Positions 19,683 through 31,585 of a stretch of 40,168 nt of DNA are shown here, in pieces. How positions within the stretch are numbered: position 1 is the first letter of the stretch; each line of letters opens with the position of its first letter. This DNA is from Candidatus Binatia bacterium. GTDB taxonomy: Bacteria > Desulfobacterota > Binatia > Bin18. The stretch covers positions 1-40,168 of the forward strand of contig JAJDZM010000082.1 of NCBI GenBank assembly GCA_022824615.1, given 5' to 3'. Made by a program: the position numbers and the translations under genes. A model generated the notes under the pieces. It was not told the origin of the DNA. It did no database searches and was given only the letters and a program-made list of their open reading frames with translations.

Positions 19683-20229
19683 TCATAATACGGTTGGCCT
19701 CATTCCGATGATGGTTGCTCTGTTTCATTTCTTTGATGCCCCAAAAGAGTAGGAACAATTGGCCAAAGCCCACCACATACGCGGCTACCGCATCCTTCGT
19801 CAAGAACACAAAGACATCGCGCATAGAGTACCACGCCTCCTTACGGTAGTGTCTTCCGCTCAATCACGATTGCCTTATGCCTAACCACTCTTCAACCAGG
19901 ACGGCAGATCGTCAAAGCCTTCATACAGTTGCAGTGTTTCGAGATCATAGGATGCATGAGCTTCTTCTCGTATGGGGCATCGATCAAAAATATGATCCCA
20001 CATGGTATAAATGACGGTGGCCCCATCCACGCATTTCTCAATAGCTATTGCCGCATCCTCAGATGTAAAAATTCCTGATAGCCGTCCATTTCCCAATTAT
20101 CCTGTGGTGGGCGGGGGAAATGGGGAATGGATCGGATGTGATTCGCTAATTGTTTGAGTTTTTTCTTTTGCATAGTGGCTCCTTCAATCGTGATTGGTAA
20201 TCGGGATTTGATTTTGCTGGTGGTGAATC
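19683..20229. other. ~547 bp insertion interrupting hsdR
   Basis: Joining 20230 to 19682 on the minus strand would restore SLKDLFY-GVMLGAHDDD in frame; GTA/TAC at both junctions; no terminal inverted repeats seen. Confidence 0.65.
19881..20096 (-). CDS. Hypothetical 71 aa ORF inside the hsdR insertion
   Basis: MGNGRLSGIFTSEDAAIAIEKCVDGATVIYTMWDHIFDRCPIREEAHASYDLETLQLYEGFDDLPSWLKSG (TTG start). Confidence 0.35.
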   Translation of the reverse strand: MGNGRLSGIFTSEDAAIAIEKCVDGATVIYTMWDHIFDRCPIREEAHASYDLETLQLYEGFDDLPSWLKSG

Positions 20230-22044
20230 GTAAAAGAGGTCTTTGAGGGAGACACTCGGTTTGCGCTCTAAGGGGCGGCTCTCAGTCTTGAGCGACTTGG
20301 TGACGCCAATGGCATCAATAATCACAAAATGCGTCTTGTCACTCGTGGCAGACGGGGTGACTTTTTTGAGGTCGTCATGTCCGAGGGTTCGTGTCCCGCG
20401 CCCTTTCATCTGCTCAAAATAATTACGGCTTTTGACATCACGCATGAACAGCAGACATTCGAGCGGCTTGACATCCGTACCCGTGGCGATCATGTCCACC
20501 GTCACCGCAATACGCGGATAATAATCATTCCGAAAAGCGGCCAGGATCGACTTCGGGTCTTCTTCGGCTTGATAGGTCACTTTTTTGCAGAACGCATTGC
20601 CGGCGTCGAATTCCTCACGCACGATCTGGATAATGTCATCTGCATGACTGTCCGTTTTGGCAAATATCAACGTTTTGGGGATTTCTGTCCGTCCGGCAAA
20701 AATTGCAGGGCTCTTATCTCGAAAGGTCCGAATCACGTTTCTGATCTGGCTGGGATTGACCACATCTTTGTCCAACTGTGTGGCCGAGAAGTCTACATCC
20801 TCGTCCAGTTGTTCCCAGCGTTTTTTGCGCGTGAGCCGGTTTCGCTTATCCACATATTCCTGCGCCTGGATATGACCGCCCTGCTTGGTGATTTCAGTCT
20901 CAATGATGTACACATCGTGACCGACATTGACACCATCAGCGACCGCTTCTTCGTGTGAATATTCACTGACGATGTTTTCGTTGAAGAAGCCAAACGTGCG
21001 GCGGTCCGGCGTTGCGGTCAAGCCGACCAGAAACGCATCATAATATTCCAGCACTTGCTTCCACAGGTTGTAGATAGAGCGGTGACATTCATCAATGACG
21101 ACAAAATCAAAGAACTCAATGGGCAGGTCGCTATTATAGACAACAGGCAACGGGGCTTTGGGCTGGGCGTGTTCAGCCGGATTGTCCTGCTCGGCAGCCT
21201 CGTCCAAAGGTTCGCCTTTGAGAATGGAATACAGGCGTTGAATGGTGCTGATACAGACCTGAGTATCTTTTGCCACATAACTCGATTTGAGCCGCTGCAC
21301 ATTATACAACTCGGTGAACTTCCGGCTTTCCTCGTTCGACACGTAGGCCCTGAATTCCTGCTCGGCCTGTTCACCCAAATTCTTTGTATCCACCAAAAAG
21401 AGCACCCGCCTGGCATCAGCGTGCTTGAGCAGACGATAAATCGCAGTAATGGCCGTGAATGTTTTTCCAGAGCCGGTTGCCATCTGGATTAACGCCCGTG
21501 GGCGGTTCTGCTGAAAAGAGCGCTCCAGCTTGGTGATGGCACGAACCTGGCAGTCTCGCAGGCCGTCTTGATTGAGGTCGGGCAGCTTCAACAACCGACC
21601 ACGGAGCGTGGCGGGCTGAGTCAGCCACTCTTGGAGTACCCGCGGCTGATGAAAAGAGAATATCGGACGCGAACGTGGTTTGGGGTCACGTCCGTCACGA
21701 AAACGGGTCAGCACACCCGTGCTTTCATAAATGAACGGCAACGGCTTGTTCTGATTCACCCATTTGAGCTTGGCTTTGGCATAGTCGCCCGATTGCGTCT
21801 CCACCACGGTCAGGCGATGCCCTTCCTCCTCCTTTTTGGCTTCGATAATGCCAACCGGCTCGCGGTCAACAAAAAGGACGTAATCTGCCGGGCCAACGTC
21901 AGTCGGATATTCACGAACGGCAACCCCGAGGCCCGCGCTGAAATCGATGTCCTTTTTCTCTTGGACCACCCAGCCGGCCTGGGTGAGCAAGCTGTCAATG
22001 TTTTCGCGAGCAGCTTGTTCCGGGGTCTGGTTGGCTCTGGCCAT
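20146..22044 (-). pseudogene. hsdR: Type I restriction endonuclease subunit R, interrupted
   Basis: N-terminal nuclease region VGIIEAKKEEEGH, Walker A MATGSGKTFTA, VIDECHRSIYN, MKGRGTRTLG; then SVSLKDLFY diverges into an unrelated tail ending at 20146. Confidence 0.9.
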
Positions 22045-26925: not shown

Positions 26926-28377
26926 ATGGGTGCACGCACGGGAGCAGAGTTTATTACGGGGCTGCGCGATCAGCGCGAGGTCTGGCTTGGCAACGAACGT
27001 GTCGAAGATGTCACCACCCATCCGGCCTTTCGAGCTGCGGTCGAGAGCGTTGCGCGTTTATACGACATGCAGCACGACCCGGCCTATCGGGACACGCTGT
27101 GCTACCCCTCGCCGACAAGCGGCGATCCGGTCGGTCTGTCGTTTCTGATCCCGCGCACGCGGGACGACCTCGTGCGGCGGCGGACCATGAGCAAGGTCTG
27201 GGCGGACGCGACCTGCGGTATGATGGGCCGCAGTGCGGACTTTCTCAATGCCATGGTCACCGCCTGGGCGGCCAAGGCCGACTATTTTGCCCAGCAGAGT
27301 CCGGAGTGCCAGGAACGCGTCTTGGACTATTATGAGCACTGCCGCGAGCATGACCTGTTTCTCACCCATACCTTGGTTGATCCACAGGTGGACCGCTCCA
27401 GGAACCGGGCCGAGCAGGACGACCCCTATCAGTGTCTCGGGATTGTCGACGAGACCGCCGAGGGGTTGGTGGTTCGCGGCGCGAAAATGATCGCCACGGC
27501 CGCGCCGTTCGCCGATGAGATTCTGGCCTGGCCCTTTCCGCCAACCCTGACCGCGGCAGAGTCCACCTACGCCATGGTCTTTATCATCCCGGTAGCCTCG
27601 CCGGGGCTGAAAATTCTGTGTCGCGAGTCCTTTACCCGGCCGGGTGCGGTCGAGGATCATCCGTTGAGCGCCCGGTTTGACGAGATGGACGCGGTCGCGG
27701 TTTTTGATGATGTGGTTGTCCCCTGGCAGCGCGTTTTTCTGCACAAAGACGTCAACCTGGTCGGCCAGATGTATACCGGCACCCGCATTCGCGAATGGAC
27801 GGCCCACCAGACCAATACGCGGCTGCTGTCCAAGCTCGAGTTTGTCTACGGCACGCTCAGCCTCATGGCCGAAGCCATCGGGGTCCAGGACAAAGCTGTT
27901 GTCCAGGAGACCCTGGGCGAGGCCGCCAGCTACGTGGAAATTATCAAATCCATCCTGCTGGCAGCGGAACACGAGGCCGAAATTGACCCGACTAACGGGG
28001 CCATCTACCCGGCCTTGACACCCCTCCAGGTCGGACGGGCCTGGGGACCGCGTATCTATCCGCGCTTGATGGCCATGATACGTCGGATTGGCGCGGGCGG
28101 GCTAATGCAGTTGCCGGCGACATTCTCGGCCTTTGACGGGCCGACCGGTCCGGACCTGGAAAAATACTATCGTGGCGCCCATATCCCGGCCCAGGACAAG
28201 GTCCGGCTCTTTAAGCTGGCCTGGGATCTGGTTGGCTCCGATTTTGGCTCACGGCACGAGCTGTACGAAATGTTCTACGCCGGCGACCCCAGCATGATTA
28301 CGGCCAGCCTGCATCGGGACTTCGACACCGCGCGGTGTACGAACCGGGTCAAGGCGTTTCTGGGTATGGGGGAGTAA
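26926..28377 (+). CDS. 4-hydroxyphenylacetate 3-hydroxylase N-terminal domain family protein (HpaB-like)
   Basis: RTGAEFITGLRDQREVWLGNERVEDVTTHPAFR ... FDEMDAVAVFDDVVVPWQRVFLHKDV ... YYRGAHIPAQDKVRLFKLAWDLVGSDFGSRHELYEMFYAGDP. Confidence 0.93.
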   Translation: MGARTGAEFITGLRDQREVWLGNERVEDVTTHPAFRAAVESVARLYDMQHDPAYRDTLCYPSPTSGDPVGLSFLIPRTRDDLVRRRTMSKVWADATCGMMGRSADFLNAMVTAWAAKADYFAQQSPECQERVLDYYEHCREHDLFLTHTLVDPQVDRSRNRAEQDDPYQCLGIVDETAEGLVVRGAKMIATAAPFADEILAWPFPPTLTAAESTYAMVFIIPVASPGLKILCRESFTRPGAVEDHPLSARFDEMDAVAVFDDVVVPWQRVFLHKDVNLVGQMYTGTRIREWTAHQTNTRLLSKLEFVYGTLSLMAEAIGVQDKAVVQETLGEAASYVEIIKSILLAAEHEAEIDPTNGAIYPALTPLQVGRAWGPRIYPRLMAMIRRIGAGGLMQLPATFSAFDGPTGPDLEKYYRGAHIPAQDKVRLFKLAWDLVGSDFGSRHELYEMFYAGDPSMITASLHRDFDTARCTNRVKAFLGMGE

Positions 28378-28382
28378 AGCCC

Positions 28383-28412
28383 TAGATCGGTATCGCCAGC
28401 AACTCGCTCAGG
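28383..28412 (-). pseudogene. 3'-end remnant of an alpha/beta hydrolase paralogue (direct repeat of 30528-30557)
   Basis: 26/30 nt identity to the 3' end of the 30527-31585 gene; minus strand reads LSELLAIPI* versus LSELLATPV*. Confidence 0.6.
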
Positions 28413-28565
28413 GGATGATGCTATAGTGCAGCGCGTCATCACGATTCTATCAGGTATAAACTTTTGGAAGATCGTAACATTGAGATTAGCGTAGAGAGTG
28501 AGGCCGGATTCGCAGCACAGCTATGATACAAAAAACGGGATGACGCCCTGAGAATAAAGTACGCA

Positions 28566-29384
28566 ATGAACCCTCAAGTCGCTTTGTACTTTCGCAAGGA
28601 ATTCCGCGAGGCCAGATATGCCGCCCTAAAAGACGCGGAGGGCTATCAACGAGTCTTGTTCGTGTTGGAGCGCCTCGGAGCGTATATGGTCGAAAAAGGC
28701 TGTCATGAAGAACACGAGCACGAAAAGGCAGATGGTCTCGGCGATTACAAGAATTGTATAACCGCCCTAGTCAAAAAATATCATCCTTTGGAAAAAGACC
28801 GTAAAAGACAGCCCAGTACGTATAGAGACTGTCATACTGCGTTCGGCAGTTTGTACGAGATGGTTATGCACGGTAGAAATGACGCTCTGCATCAGGGCGC
28901 TTTTGGGCGGATTCTCACCTTACATCTTGTGCAGCTAGCTCTGTTTTTGGAGGATACATTAATGACCATTATGACTGGCGAGATAAAAAATTATATGACA
29001 CGAAATCCCATGTGTGCGAGTGAATGGCAGCCGGTTAGTTTTGTTCGTCAGATGATGCTTGCGAACTCGTTCACGTACATTCCTGTGTATCTGAAAAGGG
29101 GGGATGCCGAGAGAGAAGAAGCGGCTTGGTATATAATTACTGATTGTGATGTTGCAATGTACCTCCAGCCCTTTAACAGCGATTGCCGAGCAAGACGGCT
29201 AACTAAATCAATCAAAGACGCAATTGAGTTGGGCGAGATGAATATAGAGAAAGCGGTTACTGTTCCCCCTGATAGGCCTGTTCGGGCTGTATTAAAACTT
29301 ACCGAAGGGAAGAAACCGGTATTAGTAAAACGCGACGATTGTAATGAATTGCAGGGTATCGCGACTACATTTGACTTGATGTAA
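28566..29384 (+). CDS. CBS-type protein with a HEPN-like N-terminal region
   Basis: N-terminal helical region with HGRNDALHQG (R-x4-H); C-terminal IKNYMTRNPMCASEWQPVSFVRQMMLANSFTYIPVYLKRG ... EKAVTVPPDRPVRAVLKLTEGKKPVLVKRDDCNELQGIATTFDLM is CBS-like. Confidence 0.55.
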   Translation: MNPQVALYFRKEFREARYAALKDAEGYQRVLFVLERLGAYMVEKGCHEEHEHEKADGLGDYKNCITALVKKYHPLEKDRKRQPSTYRDCHTAFGSLYEMVMHGRNDALHQGAFGRILTLHLVQLALFLEDTLMTIMTGEIKNYMTRNPMCASEWQPVSFVRQMMLANSFTYIPVYLKRGDAEREEAAWYIITDCDVAMYLQPFNSDCRARRLTKSIKDAIELGEMNIEKAVTVPPDRPVRAVLKLTEGKKPVLVKRDDCNELQGIATTFDLM

Positions 29385-29386
29385 GT

Positions 29387-29884
29387 CTATTCGACCTGAA
29401 GAAGTTGCCTTGCCTTTCCACGCAGCTCCTCGTCGCAACACCACTTGTGGTTTTTCTTCCATCTTTCTATCACCTTCACCTTCTCCTCAGACCATTGGAA
29501 TTGATCTCTCTCGGGATCATCCGCCGCTTCCTTGCAGTCGTCCCAGACTTCACTAAACGGGAACGCTTCCATTTTCCTCAGCCCAATTTCTGCGCAAATC
29601 TTCTCGTTGCCTAATCCCCTCATGCACCCTTCTATAACCTTTCTCGTTTTTAGCATCCGAATTCCCTCGTTGGTCTGTAAACAGTACAACATCTCCCCTG
29701 CATTATCCTGAGTTGGCGTAAAATGCATATGTTCACGCCCGTTGAAATCTGTCCACTTCACTAGATTTCCGTTTACCATTCCTTCATTCCATTCTGCGTC
29801 AGCCCTCCCTACCAGGGCTATAGCCATCCCCAATACTAACAATAACTTTCTCACCCTAATCTCCTCATCCGTGGCTCGATTCAT
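29387..29884 (-). CDS. Hypothetical secreted protein
   Basis: Signal-peptide-like VRKLLLVLGMAIALVGRADAEW; no recognised domain. Confidence 0.5.
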   Translation of the reverse strand: MNRATDEEIRVRKLLLVLGMAIALVGRADAEWNEGMVNGNLVKWTDFNGREHMHFTPTQDNAGEMLYCLQTNEGIRMLKTRKVIEGCMRGLGNEKICAEIGLRKMEAFPFSEVWDDCKEAADDPERDQFQWSEEKVKVIERWKKNHKWCCDEELRGKARQLLQVE

Positions 29885-30267
29885 CCATCGATTTTCAGAG
29901 GCGTATGGCGTGCCAGCACCTCGAAGTCGATGTCCTTATGAAGAACGGTCGTATCGGTGCGAATGGCAACTGCCCCGATAAGACAGTCAATGAGCTTGCG
30001 AACGGTTTCCCCTTCTTGCCGACAGTATCGATAAAGAACAGCCGCCTCGTCGTAGTCCCTTGAGAGCGTCGGCATGAGGACTGCGCGCGCAAGTAACCGG
30101 CGAAGGCTGTGCAGGTGCCGCTCATTCCGTGCGCCAGCGAGCACTTCCATCCGGACCGCATCGCAGATCGCGATTTCGCTTTCGAGCAGCGCCTCGACTC
30201 GATTGCAGACAGGTGAGCCAGTGTCTCGAAGGAACTCGACCCAGGCGGACGTATCTATCAGAATCAC
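29881..30267 (-). CDS. vapC: VapC-type PIN domain toxin
   Basis: MILIDTSAWVEFLRDTGSPVCNRVEALL ... ICDAVRMEVLAGARN ... LIDCLIGAVAIRTDTTVLHKDIDFEVLAR (PIN acidic residues). Confidence 0.93.
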   Translation of the reverse strand: MILIDTSAWVEFLRDTGSPVCNRVEALLESEIAICDAVRMEVLAGARNERHLHSLRRLLARAVLMPTLSRDYDEAAVLYRYCRQEGETVRKLIDCLIGAVAIRTDTTVLHKDIDFEVLARHTPLKIDG

Positions 30268-30485
30268 GTTGAGCGACCAGACCGCATTTCGTCGAGGTCA
30301 CCATCCCAACCCGACCCGCGAAGCCGTTTGGCTTCATCAACGTCAAGGGGTTCCGCTGCAAGTGCGCGAAGTGCCAGATTGATCGCCTCGCGCTTCGAGG
30401 TCAGGCGATAACGGCGCATGATTTCGGCGCAGGCCTCATCGTCGATATTTACGTTCGTGCGTGACATACACCTTGTATACACCAC
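30264..30485 (-). CDS. vapB: VapB-type antitoxin
   Basis: RTNVNIDDEACAEIMRRYRLTSKREAINLALRALAAEPLDVDEAKRLRGSGWDGDLDEMRSGR; 4 bp overlap with vapC. Confidence 0.92.
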   Translation of the reverse strand: MVYTRCMSRTNVNIDDEACAEIMRRYRLTSKREAINLALRALAAEPLDVDEAKRLRGSGWDGDLDEMRSGRST

Positions 30486-30526
30486 TATCGAAAGGGAGCC
30501 AAGGGCATGTTGCAGACGGAAGAATT

Positions 30527-31585
30527 CTATACCGGTGTCGCCAGCAGCTCGCTCAGGTGCTGGTCGATCTGTTTCAGATAGTCCGGCTCGATGCCAAACA
30601 GCCCGAGGTGGCCGTAGATGCTGTGAAGCACCCGGAATTCGCTGTTCGGAATGAGTTGCTGTTCGGCTTCACAGTCGCGCGGCGGGAAAAACATGTCTTC
30701 GTCAATCGGCATGACAAACACTTTTGCCCGAATCCTCTCAAGCGCCTGTTTGAGATCGCCACCGGTATGCCGGCTGACATCTCCCCGCTGCCATTTCCAG
30801 GCCATGCACAGCAGGTTGTTCGGATCCATGGGCAGAAAATAGTTCTCAACAAAACCGACCACAAAGTCTTCGGTGGAAGAGAAGCCCAGCTCCCGCCAGG
30901 GTTCCTGCTTGAACAGCTCGGTACAGAAGCCCATCACTGACCACAGGCGGGCCTGGCGACGCAATCCGACCTGGACCGCGTGCGGGTCGGTGTACCAGCC
31001 GTTATTCCAGGCCGGGTCCGAGGTGATGGCCTCGTTTAGGGTCTCAACGTACAGAAAGTCGTGCGGTGTATTCTTGGCCGTGCCGGCCAGCGGGGCCGCG
31101 CGCTTGACCATATCGGGATAGCGCACCGCCCACTCATAGGTCTGTTGGGCACCCATGGAGCCGCCACACACCAGTTCCAGGCGTTCAATACCAAACTGTT
31201 CGGTTACCAGCTTATGCTGGGCGCAGACATCGTCGCCGATCCGGATACGCGGGAAACGCGCCATATTGAACGGAGCGGGCGTATTGGACGGCGAACTTGA
31301 CAGACCGTTGCCGAGTTGGTTGGCGATAATAACGAAATACTTGTCCGGGTCGATGGCCCGGCCTTTGCCCACGTGGACGTCGGCCATGATCTTGCTGGTT
31401 CCCGAGTACCAGGTCGGCATGAGGATCGCATTGTCCTTTTGGGCGCTCAGCGTTCCCTGAGTGGTATAGGCGAGCTTGCCGTCGTGCAGGGTTCCACCTT
31501 CTTCCAGGGAAAAATTACCGAGCTCGAACAGCTCAAACGGCCCGTGGTTCTCGTGCGAGTAATAGTCGTTGAATACGCTGGCCAT
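30527..31585 (-). CDS. Alpha/beta fold hydrolase (homoserine O-acetyltransferase-like)
   Basis: FELGNFSLEEGGTLHDGKLAYTTQGTLS ... LVCGGSMGAQQTYEWAVRYPDMVKRAAPLAGTAKNTP ... GHLGLFG; start set at MASVFNDYY. Confidence 0.9.
   Translation of the reverse strand: MASVFNDYYSHENHGPFELFELGNFSLEEGGTLHDGKLAYTTQGTLSAQKDNAILMPTWYSGTSKIMADVHVGKGRAIDPDKYFVIIANQLGNGLSSSPSNTPAPFNMARFPRIRIGDDVCAQHKLVTEQFGIERLELVCGGSMGAQQTYEWAVRYPDMVKRAAPLAGTAKNTPHDFLYVETLNEAITSDPAWNNGWYTDPHAVQVGLRRQARLWSVMGFCTELFKQEPWRELGFSSTEDFVVGFVENYFLPMDPNNLLCMAWKWQRGDVSRHTGGDLKQALERIRAKVFVMPIDEDMFFPPRDCEAEQQLIPNSEFRVLHSIYGHLGLFGIEPDYLKQIDQHLSELLATPV

Follow-up and report, generated by a model that had tools for sequence, protein, structure and literature searches.

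Proteins in which a HEPN domain is fused to CBS domains were listed in 2013 with the prediction that they degrade RNA under the control of a ligand, the examples being a HEPN-CBS protein of Pelobacter propionicus (gi 118580987) and a HEPN-CBS-HD protein of Nostoc (alr3009), listed under Swt1-like HEPN (Anantharaman et al., PMC3710099). More recently, DS-11, a single CBS+HEPN protein, was reported to protect E. coli from phage, and this protection is lost when the HEPN catalytic residues or the CBS residue Y157 are mutated; its authors inferred an unidentified adenine derivative as the ligand and stated that, before DS-11, there was no characterised defence system with CBS domains (DefensePredictor 2026, PMC13092281).

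Here, we describe a HEPN-CBS gene in a 40,168-nt stretch of DNA (hereafter ‘the window’) from a Candidatus Binatia bacterium whose genome is a draft of 308 contigs with 89.6% completeness (GCA_022824615.1, contig JAJDZM010000082.1). An earlier note, made from the sequence of the window, had known of no earlier system built in this way; that claim of novelty fails because of the 2013 fusions and DS-11, and the window family appears to be a variant of a known design that is absent from the libraries searched. Our preferred reading, to which we assign a probability of roughly 0.6, is that the gene encodes a solo CBS-gated HEPN endoribonuclease acting as a one-gene, ligand-gated anti-phage defence.

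The protein and its two domains

The open reading frame was confirmed as intact, with an ATG start. Its features are as follows:

28566-29384, plus strand: HEPN-CBS fusion protein, 272 aa (ORF; ~60 full-length relatives with the same architecture, a count in which the same gene was fetched twice in some cases)
28566-28979, plus strand: N-terminal HEPN-like helical domain, residues 1-138 (AlphaFold2 pLDDT 90.9; DUF4145 profile comparison)
28875-28892, plus strand: predicted catalytic motif R104-N105-D106-A107-L108-H109 (R-x4-H; conservation in 45 sequences)
28983-29381, plus strand: CBS pair, residues 140-272, with T267-x-x-D270 in the second CBS (PF00571; Foldseek)

The C-terminal half is certainly a CBS pair, its two CBS motifs making up a Bateman module. 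PF00571 is matched above its Pfam cut-off over two stretches of the window protein (E 8.5e-6) and by 43 of the 45 aligned sequences, and Foldseek aligned this half with dozens of solved CBS pairs at a probability of 1.00, among them AcuB with AMP, ADP, ATP, and Ap4A. A CARF domain was considered and rejected, the sensor half being CBS by sequence and by fold. The usual nucleotide-contact motif in CBS domains is T/S-x-x-D/E. In the second CBS of this family, position 267 is T or S in 43/45 sequences and position 270 is D or E in 45/45; nearly all family members terminate at the helix bearing this motif, and the first CBS does not conserve the acidic residue of the motif. Judged from sequence, the conservation of the motif in the second CBS suggests a ligand.

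AlphaFold2 modelled the whole protein with a pLDDT of 91.8 and a pTM of 0.84 and placed N-terminal helices at residues 3-22, 27-43, 58-72, 93-107, and 111-137. R104-H109 forms the end of helix 93-107 and the turn preceding helix 111-137; in this confident model, the motif is flanked by the two final helices of the all-helical N-terminal bundle, the position that it has in HEPN domains. When compared by hhalign with an alignment of DUF4145 (a HEPN family) built in this analysis, the family scored 28.9 (E 7.7e-4, residues 33-128), as against 16.8 for the reversed decoy and 12.9 for the best of 60 column shuffles, and RNDALH of the window protein was aligned with GNDAAH of DUF4145. The corresponding match to RiboL-PSP-HEPN was weaker (19.1 versus decoys of at most 15.4) and covered the motif and the last helix; a comparable RN-x-x-A-H signature, in many cases with x-G after it, is present in members of that family. 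The same two families gave the two lowest library E-values for the N-termini of the homologs (RiboL-PSP-HEPN, 0.0021; DUF4145, 0.0061), and the lowest PADLOC E-value was that of CARF_HEPN (0.0044).

Searches of PADLOC, PHROGs, and Pfam with the N-terminus yielded no convincing match: Pfam returned nothing significant for residues 1-140 of the window protein, and none of its HEPN models reached its cut-off. DUF4145 (PF13643) and RiboL-PSP-HEPN (PF18735) are the closest HEPN profiles found, with matches below their curated cut-offs, and the CBS-fused window family is a group distinct from both. When the HEPN domain was searched by itself, Foldseek returned nothing significant; among the 50 PDB matches listed, the best superposition was with 1wty (TM 0.51/0.58, E 3.7), a HEPN-type subunit from a minimal nucleotidyltransferase pair. 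Because of this Foldseek result, the assignment is strong rather than proven; we consider it very probable that the N-terminal ~135 residues are a HEPN domain.

The protein contains the CBS stretches quoted in the earlier note and MHGRNDALHQGAF, in which R104 and H109 form the R-x4-H motif. Spacing of the type R-x4-6-H was rejected as evidence on its own, being present in 86% of composition-preserving shuffles of the 272-aa protein; RNxxxH is present in 2.2% of such shuffles. The motif is significant because it is conserved across homologs, not because of its spacing. Among 45 aligned sequences, which represent at least 11 phyla and are mostly 28-49% identical to the window protein, R104, N105, A107, H109, G111, R115, E35, and E129 are invariant (45/45). 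D106 is kept in 44/45 and, given its replacement by A in one homolog and by M in another, is dispensable. One of the two patterns with which the genome collection was searched included the motif, so that conservation is partly ascertained in the loci found with that pattern. RNxxxH is also kept in the seven full-length loci that match the second, motif-free pattern only, in all plasmid homologs read (found without the motif pattern), and in 12/12 genomes from a motif-independent search with an N-terminal profile.

These data bear on the possibility that the N-terminal half is a bundle without nuclease activity, HEPN-like or unrelated, whose R, N, and H would be structural or RNA-binding, and that the whole is a CBS-regulated binding or adaptor protein. 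Some HEPN families do lack activity, the domain has no significant Foldseek match, and E35, R115, and E129 are as invariant as R, N, and H; on the other hand, no full-length homolog examined has lost R or H, while most other positions vary, and the HEPN profile match exceeds its decoys. We regard a non-nuclease as improbable. The earlier note had read the C-terminal half as a CBS pair and the N-terminus as HEPN-like, and had named the predicted N-terminal fold and the conservation of R and H in homologs as checks. The two PF00571 stretches and the Foldseek probability establish the first of these readings; the helical bundle, the position of the motif, and the DUF4145 profile favour the second, Foldseek being non-significant; and both residues are kept in the homologs.

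Distribution, insertion site, and neighbours

The HEPN-CBS family is laterally mobile, and the window copy has been recently acquired. Homologs were found at 51 loci in the species-genome collection, in 8/148 genomes of the class, on plasmids of Burkholderia, Cupriavidus, Acidovorax, and Deinococcus, and, when the alignment was used as query, on three IMG/VR viral contigs; with a single protein as query, no relative was found on viral contigs, and phage records held no match. In the full-length homologs, the two domains are arranged in the same way, and none of the full-length members found with the N-terminal profile lacked the C-terminal half. Distribution is patchy (12/351 genomes of one family; 1/297 genomes of the phylum). 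The gene tree is at odds with taxonomy: the window protein and that of locus L019 cluster with Gammaproteobacteria, apart from the other Binatia paralogs, a pattern that paralogy and loss might also have shaped. The closest named relative of the window protein comes from a congeneric Candidatus Binatia MAG, and the window genome itself holds a paralog with 43% identity as well as a decayed fragment of a HEPN-CBS gene. Two divergent paralogs are likewise found on the Burkholderia glumae plasmid p86s5p (locus L012, 7992-8753 and 12232-13008), ~4 kb apart.

Alignment with six congeners delimits the segment in which the window copy lies. The segment and its surroundings comprise the following:

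28380-29877, no strand: ~1.5-kb inserted segment containing the HEPN-CBS gene and, convergent with it, almost the whole of an orphan ORF (congener alignment; G+C)
29387-29884, minus strand: orphan ORF, 165 aa (no Pfam match)
29881-30267, minus strand: VapC-type PIN toxin adjoining the insert (PF01850, E 4.3e-16)
30264-30485, minus strand: VapB antitoxin, context (PF09957, E 2e-13)

Homology to congeners G003 and G002 breaks off at 28379 and resumes at 29878, the two flanks being 12 nt apart in G003, and homology to G001 breaks off at 28369 and resumes at 29878; the segment is also missing in G004, G005, and G006. Its G+C content is 46.8%, compared with 57.8% for the window, and is almost the lowest among segments of equal size. 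No terminal or target-site repeats were found at the insert, and a promoter and terminator scan found no sites. A search of 144 other genomes of the class gave no homolog of the orphan ORF; it was rejected as a partner of the HEPN-CBS gene, having no relative in the class and lying outside every neighbour cluster. The VapBC DNA (29881-30485) is kept in G001 and G003, is absent from G004, and in G005 is reduced to the start of vapC.

The insertion site, flanked by an HpaB-type and an alpha/beta-hydrolase gene, is variable; it accepts defence and toxin genes and is a small defence hotspot. This interval is nearly empty in G004. In G006, it (L138:2225-5403, equivalent to window 28412-30527) holds a Thoeris ThsB-type TIR gene (ThsB_TIR, E 1.7e-28) and an Eco29kI-type restriction gene, together with a weak DNA-methylase match, a ParA-like gene, and a ribbon-helix-helix (RHH) antitoxin-like gene. 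At the same site, two other congeners have mutually similar ORFs of 83 and 97 aa (L137:5338-5589 and L141:5514-5807), each with an apparent single membrane segment. The HEPN-CBS gene of G006 is elsewhere, between genes that we named, by inspection of their sequences, xanthine-dehydrogenase-like and copper-amine-oxidase-like; at that second site, the window genome has a decayed N-terminal remnant (L003:1505-1603, compared with L142:6212-6310 of the intact G006 gene). N-terminal HEPN-CBS remnants also occur in G007 and G008, at sites not matched to that of G006. Elsewhere in the window, 20146-22044 (minus strand) encodes a 632-aa restriction-helicase with HSDR_N, ResIII, and SNF2-type matches, shorter than usual type I R subunits.

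Across 63 loci, no conserved partner, antitoxin, or operon was found beyond closely related genomes. Neighbours are mixed, housekeeping, plasmid, transposition, restriction, and HipA genes being among them, and defence genes are nearby at some loci only. Where the earlier note had spoken of a compact single-gene stress or immunity effector, the single gene therefore stands, with no conserved neighbour and a defence or mobile context, and the effector activity is a prediction. The lack of a conserved adjacent gene of any size beyond closely related loci also argues against the idea that the protein is the toxin in a toxin-antitoxin or addiction module not yet recognised, in which the CBS pair would be a dimerisation platform only. 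HEPN domains are frequent among the toxins of such modules, the window copy adjoins VapBC, and one plasmid copy is close to HipA/HipB-like genes; nevertheless, with the T/S-x-x-D/E of the second CBS also suggesting a ligand, we judge a toxin of this kind to be very improbable.

A stress or energy-charge regulator deserves somewhat more weight, although we still consider it unlikely: the CBS-gated HEPN RNase would trim cellular RNA when AMP/ATP or some other nucleotide changes, with no dedicated anti-phage role. CBS pairs commonly bind AMP, ADP, or ATP, the fold matches include AcuB with AMP, ADP, and Ap4A, and many of the neighbours are housekeeping genes. One Binatia paralog lineage adjoins a conserved ComM-like gene and appears vertically inherited, which looks less typical for defence. 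Nucleotide-controlled RNA stability has, moreover, been proposed for HEPN-CBS proteins (Anantharaman et al., PMC3710099). Patchy distribution, plasmid carriage, insertion at a site of defence genes, and decayed copies are unlike a core regulator.

Predicted mechanism and comparison with known systems

Under the preferred reading of a solo anti-phage RNase, the C-terminal CBS pair would form a dimer in which two N-terminal HEPN domains face each other and build a composite, metal-independent RNase site to which each protomer would contribute R104 and H109. An adenine nucleotide or derivative would bind the CBS pair, probably at the T/S-x-x-D/E of the second CBS, and switch the paired HEPN domains on or off, in whichever direction the gating runs. 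Phage infection could then, by altering the nucleotide pool, lead to cleavage of host and phage RNA and a stop of growth. The defence part of this reading draws on the patchy distribution, the carriage on plasmids and viral contigs, the discord between tree and taxonomy, the low-G+C insert, and the defence genes of G006; it is weakened by the mixed and housekeeping neighbours and by the vertically inherited-looking, ComM-adjacent Binatia lineage. By analogy, it may also lean on the precedent of DS-11, in which CBS and HEPN together block phage and both domains are needed (PMC13092281).

Like the window protein, DS-11 combines CBS and HEPN in one polypeptide. Against its model, NCBIfam NF053863 (‘CBS domain-containing anti-phage protein’, 305 positions, cut-off 260 bits), the window protein gave no hit, and homologs scanned singly aligned over a short CBS stretch only, reaching 18.9 bits at most; membership in DS-11 was rejected on these grounds. 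Since CBS proteins match NF053863 at positions ~71-196, the HEPN domain of DS-11 is probably C-terminal, and the domain order appears reversed relative to the window protein (HEPN 1-138, CBS 140-272), the order in DS-11 being taken from model positions rather than from its sequence. The 2013 fusions resemble the window protein, as far as a comparison by description goes, in joining HEPN to CBS with predicted ligand-controlled RNA cleavage, and Nostoc alr3009 differs from it by an additional HD domain.

We tentatively propose, at somewhat less than even odds, that the window family was assembled independently and makes up a second class of CBS-gated immune RNases of the HEPN type, in which the domain order is reversed, with members in at least 11 phyla and no dedicated Pfam, NCBIfam, or PADLOC model, and that it senses an infection-induced change in adenine nucleotides without a partner protein. 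A separate family with the two domains the other way round would point to more than one origin of CBS gating in HEPN RNases, and, if the proposal is true, many natural variants would be at hand for finding the ligand. The CARF-HEPN principle of nucleotide sensing would then also extend beyond CRISPR; as far as its neighbouring genes go, the window protein showed no association with CRISPR. In Csm6/Csx1 of type III CRISPR systems, as in the protein proposed here, a nucleotide-sensing domain gates a dimeric HEPN RNase; the sensor of Csm6/Csx1 is an N-terminal, Rossmann-fold CARF domain activated by cyclic oligoadenylate, whereas that of the window protein is a C-terminal CBS pair.
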